NCBI GenBank assembly: GCA_013373175.1
Contig: JABXII010000008.1
Location: 62,001-126,000, forward strand
Length of the DNA stretch: 64,000 bases
Direction: 5' to 3'
Source of the DNA: Campylobacteraceae bacterium
GTDB lineage: Bacteria > Campylobacterota > Campylobacteria > Campylobacterales > Arcobacteraceae
This document shows positions 38,672 to 44,477 of this stretch, in pieces. Every line of letters starts with the position of its first letter. Positions within the stretch are counted from its first letter, which is position 1. The translations under genes and the position numbers were made by a program. The notes beneath the pieces were generated by a model. It made no database searches, was not told the DNA's origin, and was given only the letters and a program-made list of their open reading frames with translations.

Positions 38672-39400
38672 TTATAAAAACTCAGTCATATATGTTCTAT
38701 ATAAAAGAGGAACAAAGTTTTGTTGGCACTTCTTGTTCTCTCTTGTTTCAATAGCAATACTTTCAAAAAAAGTAGTCCAAAGTTTTTTAAACTTTTCTTC
38801 CTTTTGTGATAGTTTTGGTTCTTCAAAAGATGCAACATTTTGAACTCCTAAAAAGTCACTACTTTTTATAAAAGCAAGTTTTCTATTTATATCATGGATA
38901 ATATAGTTTTGATTGTTTAATCTTTTTAAAAAATGTTTGCCTAAAAAATAGACTACATTAAACTTTGTTTCTATTTTTGCATATAAAGTTCCATCCTCAA
39001 GCTCTTCAAATCTAGTAAAACCATACATTTTATGAACATGCCTAAATAGTTCTTTTTCTAAGTTTTGTAAATAGAAAACTTCCTTTTGGTTTATATTAAA
39101 AAGTTCATTACTATCTTTAAAGCCCAAAATAATATATTTTAGAAGCTCTAATTCAAACTCTTTTGTATCACACATAAAAATATTAAGTATTAGTTCAAAA
39201 CATTTTTTAGGAAACTTTTTTTTAATAGCTTCTAAGACTTTTAAGCTTTTTTCTTTGTCTTCTTTTATTTCTACTATCTCATCTAAAAGTAGGGTGTCTG
39301 GAACTTTACTTACAATTTCTTTTGGTTGTAGTTTTTCATAATATACCTCATAAACTAAAGTTAAAAATCCTTCAAAGGTTTTGTCATATACTAAAATCAT
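38672..39400 (-). CDS. TIGR03915-type putative DNA repair protein
   Basis: 'MILVYDKTFEGFLTLVYEVYYEK', 'HKMYGFTRFEELEDGTLYAKIE', 'FLGKHFLKRLNNQNYIIHD'; start overlaps stop of 39397..40638 partner. Confidence 0.85.
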   Translation of the reverse strand: MILVYDKTFEGFLTLVYEVYYEKLQPKEIVSKVPDTLLLDEIVEIKEDKEKSLKVLEAIKKKFPKKCFELILNIFMCDTKEFELELLKYIILGFKDSNELFNINQKEVFYLQNLEKELFRHVHKMYGFTRFEELEDGTLYAKIETKFNVVYFLGKHFLKRLNNQNYIIHDINRKLAFIKSSDFLGVQNVASFEEPKLSQKEEKFKKLWTTFFESIAIETRENKKCQQNFVPLLYRTYMTEFL

Positions 39401-40638
39401 AATTCACCTGTAATATGACTGTAGTTTATATCAAATAGTGAGGGTTGTATTATCTTCTTTTTAGGTGGTGCAATTATTGCTTGTTTAATATCTTCTTTAT
39501 AAAAAGCAGTTTTACTATTGTACTTTCCCTTACAAGTTATAAAATATTTTGCTCTTTTTAGGGATATCTTTAACTTCTTTAAATCCTCAAAATCTAAGGA
39601 TTTAAATCTTCTAGCTTTTAAAATTTTAAATACACCCCTTACTCCAATTCCTGGAATTCTAAGAAGTTCATCTTTACTAGCTTTGTTTATTTCCATTGGG
39701 AAATATTGTAAGTTTAAAAGAGCCCAAGAGGTTTTTGGGTCTACTTCTTCATCTAAATCTGGGAACTCATCACTTACTATTTCATCATAAGAAAAGTCAT
39801 AAAATCTCAAAAGCCAATCAGCTTGATAAAGTCTATGTTCCCTTAAAAGTGGTGGTTTATTTATTATTGCAGGAAGATTTTTATCATCATTTACTGGAAT
39901 ATAAGCACTATAATAGACTCTTTTTAACAAGGCTTTATCATATAAAACAGAACTAAGTTTTAAAATGTCTTTGTCACTTTCAGGTGTTGCTCCAACTATT
40001 AGTTGAGTACTCATTCCTATAGGTTTTGTATCTTTTTCCAAGCTAATATCTCTAGCATACTTCAAGGGTTGAAGAACACTCTCTTTTGTTTTGTTTGGTG
40101 CCAAAAGTTTTAAAGACTTATCACTTGGAAGTTCTATATTTGAGCTTACTCTATTTGCTAGGGCAACTATTTGTTCTATTATCTTCTCATCAGTACCAGG
40201 TATTAATTTTACATGAATATAGCCATTAAAATGGTATTCTTTTCTTAATATTCTAAGTGCTCTTAATATCAAGTTTGAAGTATGGTCTTCACTATCAATT
40301 ATTCCAGAACTTAAAAAAAGACCTTCGATATAGTTTCTTTTGTAAAAATTGATTGTGATATCAGCAAGTTCCCTTGGAGAAAAAGCAGCTCTTTTTATAT
40401 CATTGCTTTTTTTATTTATACAATAAGCACAATCATAGATACAATAGTTTGTAAGAAGAACTTTTAGTAAAGATACACATCTTCCATCAGCTGTAAAGGT
40501 GTGACAAATACCACTATTATGTGTTGCTCCTAATTCTCCTGTTTTATGATTGTTATCACTTCCACTAGAACTGCAACTTACATCATATTTTGCACTATCT
40601 GCTAAAATTTGCATTTTCTCATAGATATCTTTTCTCAT
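39397..40638 (-). CDS. Putative DNA modification/repair radical SAM protein (TIGR03916-type)
   Basis: 'CIYDCAYCINKKSND' radical SAM motif; C-terminal HhH 'DELLRIPGIGVRGVFKILKARRF'. Confidence 0.9.
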   Translation of the reverse strand: MRKDIYEKMQILADSAKYDVSCSSSGSDNNHKTGELGATHNSGICHTFTADGRCVSLLKVLLTNYCIYDCAYCINKKSNDIKRAAFSPRELADITINFYKRNYIEGLFLSSGIIDSEDHTSNLILRALRILRKEYHFNGYIHVKLIPGTDEKIIEQIVALANRVSSNIELPSDKSLKLLAPNKTKESVLQPLKYARDISLEKDTKPIGMSTQLIVGATPESDKDILKLSSVLYDKALLKRVYYSAYIPVNDDKNLPAIINKPPLLREHRLYQADWLLRFYDFSYDEIVSDEFPDLDEEVDPKTSWALLNLQYFPMEINKASKDELLRIPGIGVRGVFKILKARRFKSLDFEDLKKLKISLKRAKYFITCKGKYNSKTAFYKEDIKQAIIAPPKKKIIQPSLFDINYSHITGEL

Positions 40639-40720: not shown

Positions 40721-40758
40721 AAGTAAAACAACCACAAGGGATTTTGGTAGTTTTACTT
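40721..40758 (-). terminator. Hairpin downstream of the microprotein ORF
   Basis: AAGTAAAACAACCA-N10-TGGTAGTTTTACTT, 14-bp stem with one mismatch. Confidence 0.6.
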
Positions 40759-40776: not shown

Positions 40777-40854
40777 TTAAAAGCTTGCACTAATAAAACC
40801 AATAGCTGCAAAAGATACAGCTATTAAAACAATTAGATTTCTTAGAAAATTCAT
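40777..40854 (-). CDS. Unannotated 25-aa single-TM microprotein MNFLRNLIVLIAVSFAAIGFISASF
   Basis: ATG with AAGGAG 5 nt upstream, hydrophobic product, stop TAA, downstream hairpin, upstream promoter architecture matching nhaA. Confidence 0.65.
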   Translation of the reverse strand: MNFLRNLIVLIAVSFAAIGFISASF

Positions 40855-40883
40855 ATTATCTCCTTCTATAAAGCTAATTAAAT

Positions 40884-40938
40884 TTTATACAATAAGTGTC
40901 AATTTACAAATACACTTTTACTTGACAAAGTCTTGACA
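40884..40938 (-). promoter_or_regulatory. Composite promoter of the microprotein (tandem TGTCAAG repeats plus TTGACA plus TATAAA)
   Basis: TTTGTCAAGACTTTGTCAAG then 18 bp then TTGACACTTATTGTATAAAA on the minus strand. Confidence 0.6.
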
Positions 40939-40943
40939 AATTT

Positions 40944-42338
40944 TTAGTTTTTAAAAGTAATACAGAAAATGTTGTATGGTTTTTCATAAGTATAATCAAG
41001 TTTAAACTCATGCATTTGAATTATCTTATTTACAATATTTAATCCTAATCCATGACCTAATTGTTGATTTGGTTCCCTTGTAAAAGGTTGGGTATAATAA
41101 ATAAGATCACTTGTAAGTTTTTTTGCAATATTTTTAACCTCAATCTTATTTTCAAAAGCTTCAATTATAATTGGGTATTCCTGCGCATATTTCATTGCAT
41201 TGTCAATTAAGTTTTTAAGTGCAATTGTTAAATAATATTTATCTGCAAGTATGTTAAAGTCCTCTTTTATAATAACTTCTACCTTTGATTCATCATCAAT
41301 AGAGAGTTTAGATAATGATTCAAGAATTAAGCTACTAGTTTTAAACTTTGAAGAGTTGATTTTTGCAAAGTTTAATTTCTCTCTTTGTAATAGTTTGCTT
41401 GTAAGTTCTTCTATGTCTATGAAAACTTTATTTAGGCTATCTATTTGTTTATCATCTTTGTTTTGTCTTAAATTTTCAAGTACAAATTTAGCTTTTGAAA
41501 TTGGTGTTTTTAATTCATGACTTATATTTCTTAAAAGCTCTTCCCTTGAATGAATAATATCACTTTGCTTTTCAAGGTATGAATTTAGATTATGTGTTAT
41601 TTCACTTAATTCATTGTTCTTACCAATGTCTATTTTAATAGTAGTTTCATCATCTTTAAAAAGCTGTAAAATACCTTTGTTTAGTTTGTCAAGCTTGTCT
41701 TTTATCTGTTTTGTAATACGTGATGAGATGATAGATGATAAAAGAAATGCAATAATAAAAAGTATAACTACTTCAACTTTTATTGTATCTATAAATTGAT
41801 TTCGTTTCTTTTCTGTTTTATCTAATTTAGTTTGAAGATAATCTATCTCTTCTTTTATAAGTTTATCTATCTTTAGACTTATACTTTCAAATTTTTTATT
41901 AAAATTATCAAAAGCTATTTTTTCATTTTTGCTTACTAAAATAAGCTTATATAATTGGTATTTTATTAGATTTTCAATCTCTTCAAAATATTTAAATATT
42001 TGCTGTATGTTTTGTTTTTCAATTGTTGATTCAGAGTTATCTATTGTCTCTTTCTTCTTAATAATCAACTTTTTAAAAAGTTCATCAGATTTTTTTAGAC
42101 GTTTTTTTACTACTTCAATTTTTTCATAATCAGTTACAATATCCAAAACAATCCAAGAAAAAGAGTTGTTATACTCTTTTAGTTTTTCAACTCTTCTTAT
42201 TTGGTCATATCTGTGTATTTGATTTTTATGTATTTCACTTAGATTAAAAATTGTATAAAAAAATACTCCTATTATTGATAGCATAATAAGTAGTATCAGA
42301 GAAAATGATATAAAAAGTCTTTGTCTAATTGTTATCAC
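40944..42338 (-). CDS. Sensor histidine kinase
   Basis: 'LLRNISHELKTPISKAKFVLENL', 'LKNLIDNAMKYAQ', 'GHGLGLNIVNKI'; TM segments and HAMP-like region. Confidence 0.92.
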   Translation of the reverse strand: MITIRQRLFISFSLILLIMLSIIGVFFYTIFNLSEIHKNQIHRYDQIRRVEKLKEYNNSFSWIVLDIVTDYEKIEVVKKRLKKSDELFKKLIIKKKETIDNSESTIEKQNIQQIFKYFEEIENLIKYQLYKLILVSKNEKIAFDNFNKKFESISLKIDKLIKEEIDYLQTKLDKTEKKRNQFIDTIKVEVVILFIIAFLLSSIISSRITKQIKDKLDKLNKGILQLFKDDETTIKIDIGKNNELSEITHNLNSYLEKQSDIIHSREELLRNISHELKTPISKAKFVLENLRQNKDDKQIDSLNKVFIDIEELTSKLLQREKLNFAKINSSKFKTSSLILESLSKLSIDDESKVEVIIKEDFNILADKYYLTIALKNLIDNAMKYAQEYPIIIEAFENKIEVKNIAKKLTSDLIYYTQPFTREPNQQLGHGLGLNIVNKIIQMHEFKLDYTYEKPYNIFCITFKN

Positions 42339-43005
42339 AAAATTTATACCCTATACCCCAAATTGATTTGATATATATTGATTCCTTTGAATCATCATTT
42401 ATTTTAAATCTAATATTACTAACATGCATATCGATAGTTCTATTTTTTGTATCTTCTTTTAATGAAGTTTGATTTATGATATCTTCCCTTGATACAACTT
42501 TGTTTATATTTTCAATAAACATAAAAAAGATTTCTGCTTCTATTTTTGTAAATTCAATTTGTTGATTTTCTAAGAAGACACTTCTTTTATTTAAATCAAT
42601 TCTTAAATCATTTATTTGAAGTTCTTCACTATCTTTATATCTTTTAAGTGTTGCATCAATTCTTAGAACTAACTCTCTTGGTTCATAAGGTTTAGATAAG
42701 TAATCATCGGCTCCTAATTCAAAGCCATAGATTTTATTTCCTATATCATCCCTTGCAGTTGAGATGATAATAGGTATATTTTTAATTTTCTTTATTTTCT
42801 TGAAAAGGTCAAAGCCATCCATTCTCGGAAGGGATAAATCTAAAATAACAATAGAGTATTTTGCGTGATTTTCTTCAAACTCTTTTAATGCTTCAAAAGG
42901 TTCTGAATATACAATACAATTATAATTATAATCTTTTAGAAATGTGCTTATAAGTTCTTGTAGTTCGATATTGTCTTCAATCAATAGAACACTTTTACTT
43001 TTCAC
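42325..43005 (-). CDS. OmpR/PhoB family response regulator
   Basis: Receiver 'VLLIEDNIELQELI', 'VILDLSLPRMDGF'; winged helix 'SREDIINQTSLKEDTKNRTIDMHVSNIRFKI'. Confidence 0.93.
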   Translation of the reverse strand: MKSKSVLLIEDNIELQELISTFLKDYNYNCIVYSEPFEALKEFEENHAKYSIVILDLSLPRMDGFDLFKKIKKIKNIPIIISTARDDIGNKIYGFELGADDYLSKPYEPRELVLRIDATLKRYKDSEELQINDLRIDLNKRSVFLENQQIEFTKIEAEIFFMFIENINKVVSREDIINQTSLKEDTKNRTIDMHVSNIRFKINDDSKESIYIKSIWGIGYKFCDNN

Positions 43006-43017
43006 TTTTAACCTTTA

Positions 43018-44373
43018 CTATTTTGTATTATCATCTTGAATTTTGTTTTTCGATGATACTGATTTTAACCAAAAATATCCAAATAAACCTGAAAATAATG
43101 AAGCACTTAAGATTCCTATTTTTGCTTGGAAAATAAGTTCAGGGTTTCCAACAAAAGCTAAATCTGCAACAAATATAGACATTGTAAATCCTATTCCACC
43201 TAAAAATGCTACTCCAAATACTTGGCTCATATTACTTCCTTTTGGAAGCTCTGCAATTTTTAGTTTTACTGCTAGGAAAGAAACCCCAAATATACCAATA
43301 ACTTTTCCTAAAATAAGTCCTAAAATAATACCTAACGAAACAGGTTCTAAGATTGTAGTACCAATTGAACTAAAGTCAATTTTAACTCCTGCATTTGCTA
43401 AAGCAAAGATAGGAATAATTAATAATGCAACTGGTAAATGAAGATTATATTCTAATCTTGCAGCAGGTGTTCCTACTTCATTGATTTTATCTTTTATATT
43501 TGTAAGAATCTTTTTTTGTTTTTCATGCATCATGTGATTTTCTTGGACTGGATAGTTATCATATTCATCTAATAAACGTTTTGTATCTTGGGTAAAGGTT
43601 TCAGGAGCTCTTTTAGGCGTTGAAGGTATTGCTAGTGCAGCTAAAACCCCTGCAATTGTAGCATGTACACCAGATTCTAACATGAAAAACCACATTACCA
43701 AACCTACAACAAAGTAAGGTAGAATCATATGAATACCAAATCTATTAAAGGCAATCATTAAAGCAAACATAATTCCTGCTAAACTAAGTGCAAGCATATT
43801 TATAGTTTCAGTGTAGAAAATAGCAATAACTAAAACAGCTCCTAAGTCATCAACAATAGCAAGGGCAACTAAAAATGTTACAAGGGTTGTAGGAACTCTT
43901 TTCCCTAATAAAACTAAAGCACTAATTGCAAAAGCAATATCTGTTGCCATTGGAATTCCCCAACCAGTAACTCCTTGTGTACCATAATTTAAACTTGTAT
44001 AAATAAGTGCAGGAAAAATCATACCACCAATTGCTGCTAGAATAGGAAGCATTGCTACTTTTATATTTGATAATTCTCCTGCTGTAATCTCTCTTTTTAT
44101 TTCAAGTCCAATCAAAAAGAAGAATATTGCCATAAGTCCATCATTAATCCAGTGATGAAGTGAATGAGAAAGTTCCCATGAACCTACATTTAAATCAATA
44201 TAAGTATGAAAAAAGTGTGCATACATATCATATAAAGGACTATTGGCTAAGACTAATGCCAATACAGTTGTTATTATTAAAATTAAACCTGTAGTTGTTT
44301 GGGCGTGTAAAAAATCTTCAAAAGGTGTTGATACTTTTTTAAAAGCTTTTTCCCAAGGTGCGTATAGTTTCAT
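43018..44373 (-). CDS. nhaA: Na+/H+ antiporter NhaA
   Basis: 'GLIGLEIKREITAGELS'-like core, 'PMATDIAFAISALVLLGKRVP', 'GVHATIAGVLAALAIP'. Confidence 0.95.
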   Translation of the reverse strand: MKLYAPWEKAFKKVSTPFEDFLHAQTTTGLILIITTVLALVLANSPLYDMYAHFFHTYIDLNVGSWELSHSLHHWINDGLMAIFFFLIGLEIKREITAGELSNIKVAMLPILAAIGGMIFPALIYTSLNYGTQGVTGWGIPMATDIAFAISALVLLGKRVPTTLVTFLVALAIVDDLGAVLVIAIFYTETINMLALSLAGIMFALMIAFNRFGIHMILPYFVVGLVMWFFMLESGVHATIAGVLAALAIPSTPKRAPETFTQDTKRLLDEYDNYPVQENHMMHEKQKKILTNIKDKINEVGTPAARLEYNLHLPVALLIIPIFALANAGVKIDFSSIGTTILEPVSLGIILGLILGKVIGIFGVSFLAVKLKIAELPKGSNMSQVFGVAFLGGIGFTMSIFVADLAFVGNPELIFQAKIGILSASLFSGLFGYFWLKSVSSKNKIQDDNTK

Positions 44374-44414: not shown

Positions 44415-44477
44415 TGTCAAATTATACAAATTAAATGTCAAGAAATTTATACATTTTTTCTTGACATTTTCTTGGCA
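44415..44477 (-). promoter_or_regulatory. Composite nhaA promoter with TGCCAAG/TGTCAAG tandem repeats and TTGACA inverted copy
   Basis: Minus strand: TGCCAAGAAAATGTCAAG-N18-TTGACATTTAATTTGTATAAT; also ATGTCAAGAAA/TTTCTTGACAT inverted repeat 44435-44467. Confidence 0.6.

Follow-up and report, generated by a model that had tools for sequence, protein, structure and literature searches.

Genes and signals of the nhaA locus

The window (the whole stretch of DNA analyzed, 64,000 nucleotides from a genome of the Arcobacteraceae) carries an Na+/H+ antiporter gene, the genes of a response regulator (RR) and a sensor histidine kinase (HK), and a microprotein gene, in the order nhaA-RR-HK-microprotein and in one orientation. 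The genes and their signals are the following.

44421..44477, minus strand: second module copy, upstream of nhaA (TGCCAAGAAAATGTCAAG...TTGACA-N9-TATAAT)
43018..44373, minus strand: nhaA, encoding an Na+/H+ antiporter and opening the nhaA-RR-HK operon
42325..43005, minus strand: OmpR/PhoB-type response regulator (Response_reg, Trans_reg_C), presumed binder of the direct repeat
40944..42338, minus strand: sensor histidine kinase, 464 aa, two transmembrane (TM) segments, related to the ArsS family, below cutoff
40882..40938, minus strand: promoter module of the microprotein, rigid, 57 bp
40860..40865, minus strand: Shine-Dalgarno (SD) sequence AAGGAG, ending 5 nt before the ATG
40777..40854, minus strand: microprotein gene, 25 aa (MNFLRNLIVLIAVSFAAIGFISASF), called from its translation, homologues and pN/pS
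40721..40758, minus strand: terminator-like hairpin beyond the microprotein stop, its U-run weak

The NhaA protein scores above the cutoffs of its models (PF06965, 497 bits; TIGR00773, 413 bits vs 254), and the RR combines a receiver (Response_reg, 86 bits) with a winged-helix DNA-binding domain (Trans_reg_C, 62 bits), both over cutoff. The HK matches the ArsS sensor kinase model NF038389 with 169.3 bits, below the curated minimum of 250 bits, and is not assigned to that family. Its periplasmic sensor region is predicted to be all-helical (pTM 0.43, the secondary structure alone being used), and structure comparison of the HK model returned matches to kinase cores only, with no ligand found for the sensor region. 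Among openly licensed papers, no two-component system controlling nhaA in Arcobacter was found. Beyond the hairpin, positions 38672-40638 of the window encode two proteins, one a radical SAM protein (TIGR03916) and the other of the DUF4130 type, which form a conserved pair and have no relation to the regulon described below.

The first-pass annotation had placed a minus-strand ORF of 25 codons at 40854 to 40777, just past the histidine kinase and in the same orientation, with AAGGAG 5 nt ahead of the ATG. Its coordinates and translation are correct, as are the SD sequence at 40865-40860 and the HK stop at 40944, 89 nt beyond which the ORF begins. The predicted peptide MNFLRNLIVLIAVSFAAIGFISASF has R5 in its short N-terminus, a single TM helix at approximately residues 7-24 and almost no C-terminal tail, and no Pfam or NCBIfam model matches it. 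The hairpin has exactly the position first described, 40721-40758, but the 14-bp stem ascribed to it is in fact one of 13 pairs with one 1x1 mismatch (-11.6 kcal/mol, z = -3.5 vs shuffles); a counterpart sequence is present in loci L053 and L054. Screening of the region with Rfam gave chance miRNA matches only. A leader peptide or attenuator at the window was rejected, since the hairpin ends the transcript and no gene is attached to it, and a type I toxin is not favoured in view of the conserved regulated promoter and of the lack of a visible antisense RNA.

Conservation of the microprotein

Homologues of the peptide occur both within the genus and outside it. A profile built from 16 members was used to scan 107 genomes of the family, taken to be the Arcobacteraceae since Poseidonibacter contigs are among them, with E < 1e-6 as the threshold for a call and matches at E > 1e-4 treated as noise. 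Homologues were identified in 25 of the 107 genomes, where the start codon, SD sequence and reading frame assigned in the window are all kept. They are 25-27 aa long, each is preceded by an AGGA/AAGG-type SD sequence, and they conform to the consensus M-x-F-L/V-R-N-L...S-F-x-x-I-G-x-I-S-x-S-F. Over 57 moderately close pairs pN/pS is 0.36 (pS 0.465, pN 0.167), falling to ~0.05-0.3 between the closest relatives; the most conserved codon position is the second, and the hydrophobic pattern is retained. The conservation of start, SD sequence and frame, together with this pN/pS, places the ORF beyond chance. Judged by the substitution pattern, the microprotein is under purifying selection and is a real conserved gene for a 25-aa predicted single-pass membrane peptide of an unmatched family. 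One genome outside the Arcobacteraceae also carries it (G275, from another family of the same order), which looks like a transfer between families.

The promoter module

The proposal that the microprotein has its own promoter holds in a more specific form than was claimed, since positions 40938-40882 comprise a -10 element and, ahead of it, a conserved direct repeat of the regulator type. The repeat consists of TGTCAA at 40938-40933 and 40927-40922 (11-bp period) and is followed by TTGACA at 40902-40897 and the -10 box TAAAAT at 40887-40882. All microprotein copies of the module share the pattern TGTCAA-N5-TGTCAA-N19-TTGACA (or TTTACA/TTTGCA)-N9-TATAAT with fixed spacing, in which the full repeat unit is TTGTCAAG, arranged as TTGTCAAG-N3-TTGTCAAG. 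Direct repeats at an 11-bp period are the usual geometry for OmpR/PhoB-type regulators. The role of a normal -35 box was rejected for TTGACA, which stands exactly 9 nt ahead of the -10 element in all aligned copies; being TGTCAA on the other strand, it may represent a third, inverted half-site. The true -35 position is non-consensus, as would fit an activated promoter.

The module is retained both where the microprotein gene is inverted toward the kinase gene (e.g. L016, L017, L020, L023, L024, L049) and where it is unlinked, elsewhere in the genome (G014, L057). The first-pass annotation missed that this promoter architecture is common to the microprotein and nhaA, the two sharing a conserved box for which the RR is the presumed binder. 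In genome G000, a perfect direct repeat (G000:C27:45110-45127; L063, L070) is situated ~80 nt ahead of another OmpR-type RR/HK pair; it lacks the rigid TTGACA-N9-TATAAT and could reflect cross-regulation or be a look-alike box.

Reconstruction of the proposed regulon

Upstream of nhaA the module occurs in 14 of 15 loci, the window locus included, and it also precedes the gene of a second, distant NhaA subfamily, encoded after the kinase in L018, L021 and L022. Genome-wide scans were pattern searches for the module in the 107 family genomes, with the reversed pattern as a control. The pattern was composed after the sites had been seen, so that the independent evidence consists of the clean control, the co-occurrence with the kinase and the coherence of the targets. 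The module was found in 32 of the 107 genomes, against none with the reversed pattern, and is present in all 31 genomes with a kinase orthologue vs one of the 76 without (Fisher p ~4e-26, shared ancestry ignored). The lone match without a kinase (G042) is aberrant in sequence and looks spurious. An order-wide scan added G275 as the sole convincing case outside the family, most other matches at this level being noise.

Besides nhaA, the module precedes operons of the Mrp multisubunit Na+/H+ antiporter in G014, G006 and G275 (MnhE, MrpF, MnhG and MnhC by Pfam), and in G050 the box is directly ahead of the RR gene. Two Mrp operons, located beside an orphan RR without a kinase, begin with a close paralogue of the microprotein, and further peptides of 24-29 aa are preceded by the module as well. 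By its promoter, the microprotein is apparently one of the genes controlled by the neighbouring two-component system. One exact promoter defines an antiporter-microprotein regulon, which is new along with the microprotein family; the presence of a small membrane protein inside a two-component regulon is a known principle.

Several other elements were observed under the same promoter. A second peptide family (28-29 aa; L134:5114(-), L131:4390(-), L132:4667(-), L130 box 3742(-)) has the consensus M-x-I-V-D-I-V-L-F...F-I-Y-N-S-K with a C-terminal lysine, and in L134 its member replaces the microprotein after the kinase. An orphan RR adjoins an Mrp antiporter operon at L130:3809-5573 and L128:4371-6363; in L130 the RR is preceded by a peptide of 24 aa, MILFRILIPIIVIFFITLGTLAFA, which has its own box, and L128 has an equivalent box without an intact peptide. 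Two tandem microprotein genes, each with its own box (L059:6775(-) and 7138(-), G006:C8), lie next to a kinase locus that holds only an nhaA remnant. Finally, a putative regulator-activated small RNA was detected at L128:13443, L129:251(-), L130:12638, L131:4483(-) and L132:4761(-), where the module is followed, 4-6 nt past the -10 element, by thirteen invariant bases, TCTTAATAAAGTG, and then by a long hairpin, in which compensatory changes occur, and a short T-run. By covariance model this RNA is convincing (E below 1e-8) in 5 of the 107 genomes, all kinase-bearing, and is absent from the window's genome.

Co-occurrence with the kinase and NhaA

For the same 107 genomes, orthologues of the kinase were called at E < 1e-100 and of this NhaA at E < 1e-200. 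The microprotein was found in 25 of the 31 kinase-bearing genomes vs none of the 76 kinase-less ones, so that all 25 genomes with the microprotein have a kinase orthologue and six kinase-bearing genomes lack the microprotein. Among the 27 genomes with this NhaA it is present in 20 of 21 with the kinase and in 0 of 6 without, although the NhaA of these six is 72-78% identical. Kinase-bearing genomes without this NhaA have the microprotein in 5 of 10 cases, and within the kinase-bearing set the presence of NhaA does predict it (20/21 vs 5/10, p = 0.007). Whichever way it is oriented, the microprotein gene nearly always directly follows the HK stop, and in G050, G097 and G101 it lies beside the kinase pair with no antiporter gene adjoining. 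Because of these counts and the antiporter-free loci, the microprotein, as judged from comparative genomics, tracks the kinase and not NhaA. A regulatory or accessory role for the kinase or NhaA had been suggested from the window; the co-occurrence (25/25, 0/76, 0/6) supports this proposal in part, in that it strongly links the microprotein functionally with the two-component system.

Possible function of the microprotein

The conserved sites and the phylogenetic co-occurrence suggest that the RR would bind TTGTCAAG-N3-TTGTCAAG and activate promoters with poor -35 boxes, its targets being nhaA-RR-HK (positive autoregulation and antiporter output) and the microprotein. The peptide would then sit N-in in the membrane and pack against the kinase's transmembrane helices; in this way its accumulation would report and damp (or tune) kinase output, forming a feedback arm with a logic analogous to that of MgrB on PhoQ and made of a TM helix alone. 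Feedback or tuning of the kinase through the membrane helix is the likeliest reading, to which we assign a probability of about one half. In resemblance to TM2 of the HK the microprotein exceeds 99.2% of 1177 control TM segments, and 4 of 300 column shuffles match it, this being a post hoc comparison, one of two TM segments tested, in which the topology predicted from R5 is opposite to that of TM2; the similarity may be a weak hint and serves as a lead only. The resemblance to TM1 is unremarkable (6% of controls score as high). Counting against feedback on the kinase are the six kinase-bearing genomes without the microprotein, the predictive value added by NhaA, and the fact that inhibition by MgrB needs a periplasmic part, which the microprotein lacks.

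In the main rival reading, the peptide is a KdpF-like accessory that binds Na+/H+ antiporters (NhaA, Mrp) and stabilises or tunes them, which would account for the co-regulation. The microprotein has its promoter in common with nhaA and Mrp operons, and paralogues of it open two Mrp operons; their position there, beside an orphan RR without a kinase, fits an antiporter role better than kinase feedback. There are also precedents, as KdpF is a TM-only 30-aa peptide under its own two-component system (PMC3618439) and CioY, of 34 aa, is a subunit of a transporter-type complex in a related bacterium (PMC11955535). On the other hand, none of the six genomes with the same NhaA and no kinase has the microprotein, which conversely persists where no antiporter adjoins the kinase, and in G275 the Mrp operon lies directly under the box without an intervening peptide. 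Moreover, NhaA and Mrp have unrelated folds, and one peptide serving both would be demanding. We consider the accessory role possible but rather unlikely.

The link to the kinase could also be transcriptional only, the peptide being an output of the regulon with another membrane target (a protease adaptor, a lipid or proton-leak response, or another transporter). The unrelated peptides of families B and C under the same promoter would suit this explanation, as the regulon may use many small membrane peptides, whereas the near-constant place beside the HK gene in either orientation speaks against it, and it appears improbable. That no protein is made at all, the ORF being incidental to a short transcript, leader or terminator fragment, is highly improbable: in its favour are the shortness of the transcript, with its terminal hairpin, and the apparently non-coding RNA found under this promoter in five genomes, but synonymous changes dominate (pS 0.465, pN 0.167), conservation is highest at second codon positions, and the start, SD sequence and hydrophobic pattern are kept.

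In a broader and quite speculative form of the kinase-feedback reading, a Na+/H+-homeostasis two-component system of Arcobacteraceae would govern antiporters of unrelated families (two NhaA subfamilies and Mrp) through one rigid module, plus TM-only peptides of 24-29 aa (a small RNA in some species), and the main peptide would compete with the similar TM2 of the kinase, as a minimal means of feedback with no extramembrane domain.

A two-component system of a little-studied phylum gains a defined, testable regulon of antiporters and microproteins with one exact promoter, and the 57-bp pattern can expose microproteins that gene callers usually skip. The microprotein is among the smallest candidate kinase regulators, and since the membrane helix is nearly the entire protein, TM-TM regulation could be studied with it without a periplasmic domain. 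The possibility that evolution has produced further small membrane proteins targeting different kinases is raised as a question in the MgrB study (PMC8404706), and the microprotein is a candidate for one.

Comparison with known systems

The parallels drawn by the first-pass annotation to MgrB, KdpF and CydX remain analogies, and on the features tested the microprotein, by sequence and by context, is a member of neither the MgrB nor the KdpF family; no Pfam or NCBIfam match to either was found for it. Like MgrB, it is a small single-TM peptide with N-terminal positive charge, and by its promoter box a putative member of the regulon of the two-component system proposed as its target, with predicted positive autoregulation and a possible feedback arm (PMC2789325, PMC8404706). 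It differs in length (25 aa vs 47), in having no tryptophan and in being encoded next to the kinase. The periplasmic region of MgrB (~22 aa) has two conserved cysteines that are functionally needed, and MgrB-24, which lacks the tail, still binds PhoQ but fails to inhibit it (PMC8404706); the microproteins (25-27 aa) have at most a few residues past the TM helix, and none of them contains a cysteine.

KdpF is nearer than MgrB in its size and in how it is controlled: KdpF and the microprotein are TM-only peptides of ~25-30 aa, and both are connected with a two-component system that has a cation transporter under its control. KdpF (30 aa, N-in) is regulated by KdpDE and contacts KdpD in two-hybrid assays with no strong regulatory effect (PMC3618439). 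In contrast to KdpF, which is first in kdpFABC and bound to KdpA, the microprotein has its own promoter and is not first in a transporter operon (except for the paralogues before mnhE), has nhaA/RR/HK or mnhE and no kdp genes as neighbours, and, from genome to genome, goes with the kinase and not with the transporter. CioY, found as an overlooked ORF, is likewise a TM-only microprotein of Campylobacterota (PMC11955535), but in comparison with CioY/CydX there are no oxidase genes at the locus and no family match, and the connection is by regulon and not by operon membership. The promoter module itself resembles PhoB/OmpR boxes in its direct repeat of ~8 bp with an 11-bp period upstream of a poor -35 promoter, and differs from them in the half-site TTGTCAAG, in the distal TTGACA, which is fixed at 9 nt ahead of the -10 element and reads TGTCAA on the opposite strand, and in its confinement to this kinase clade.
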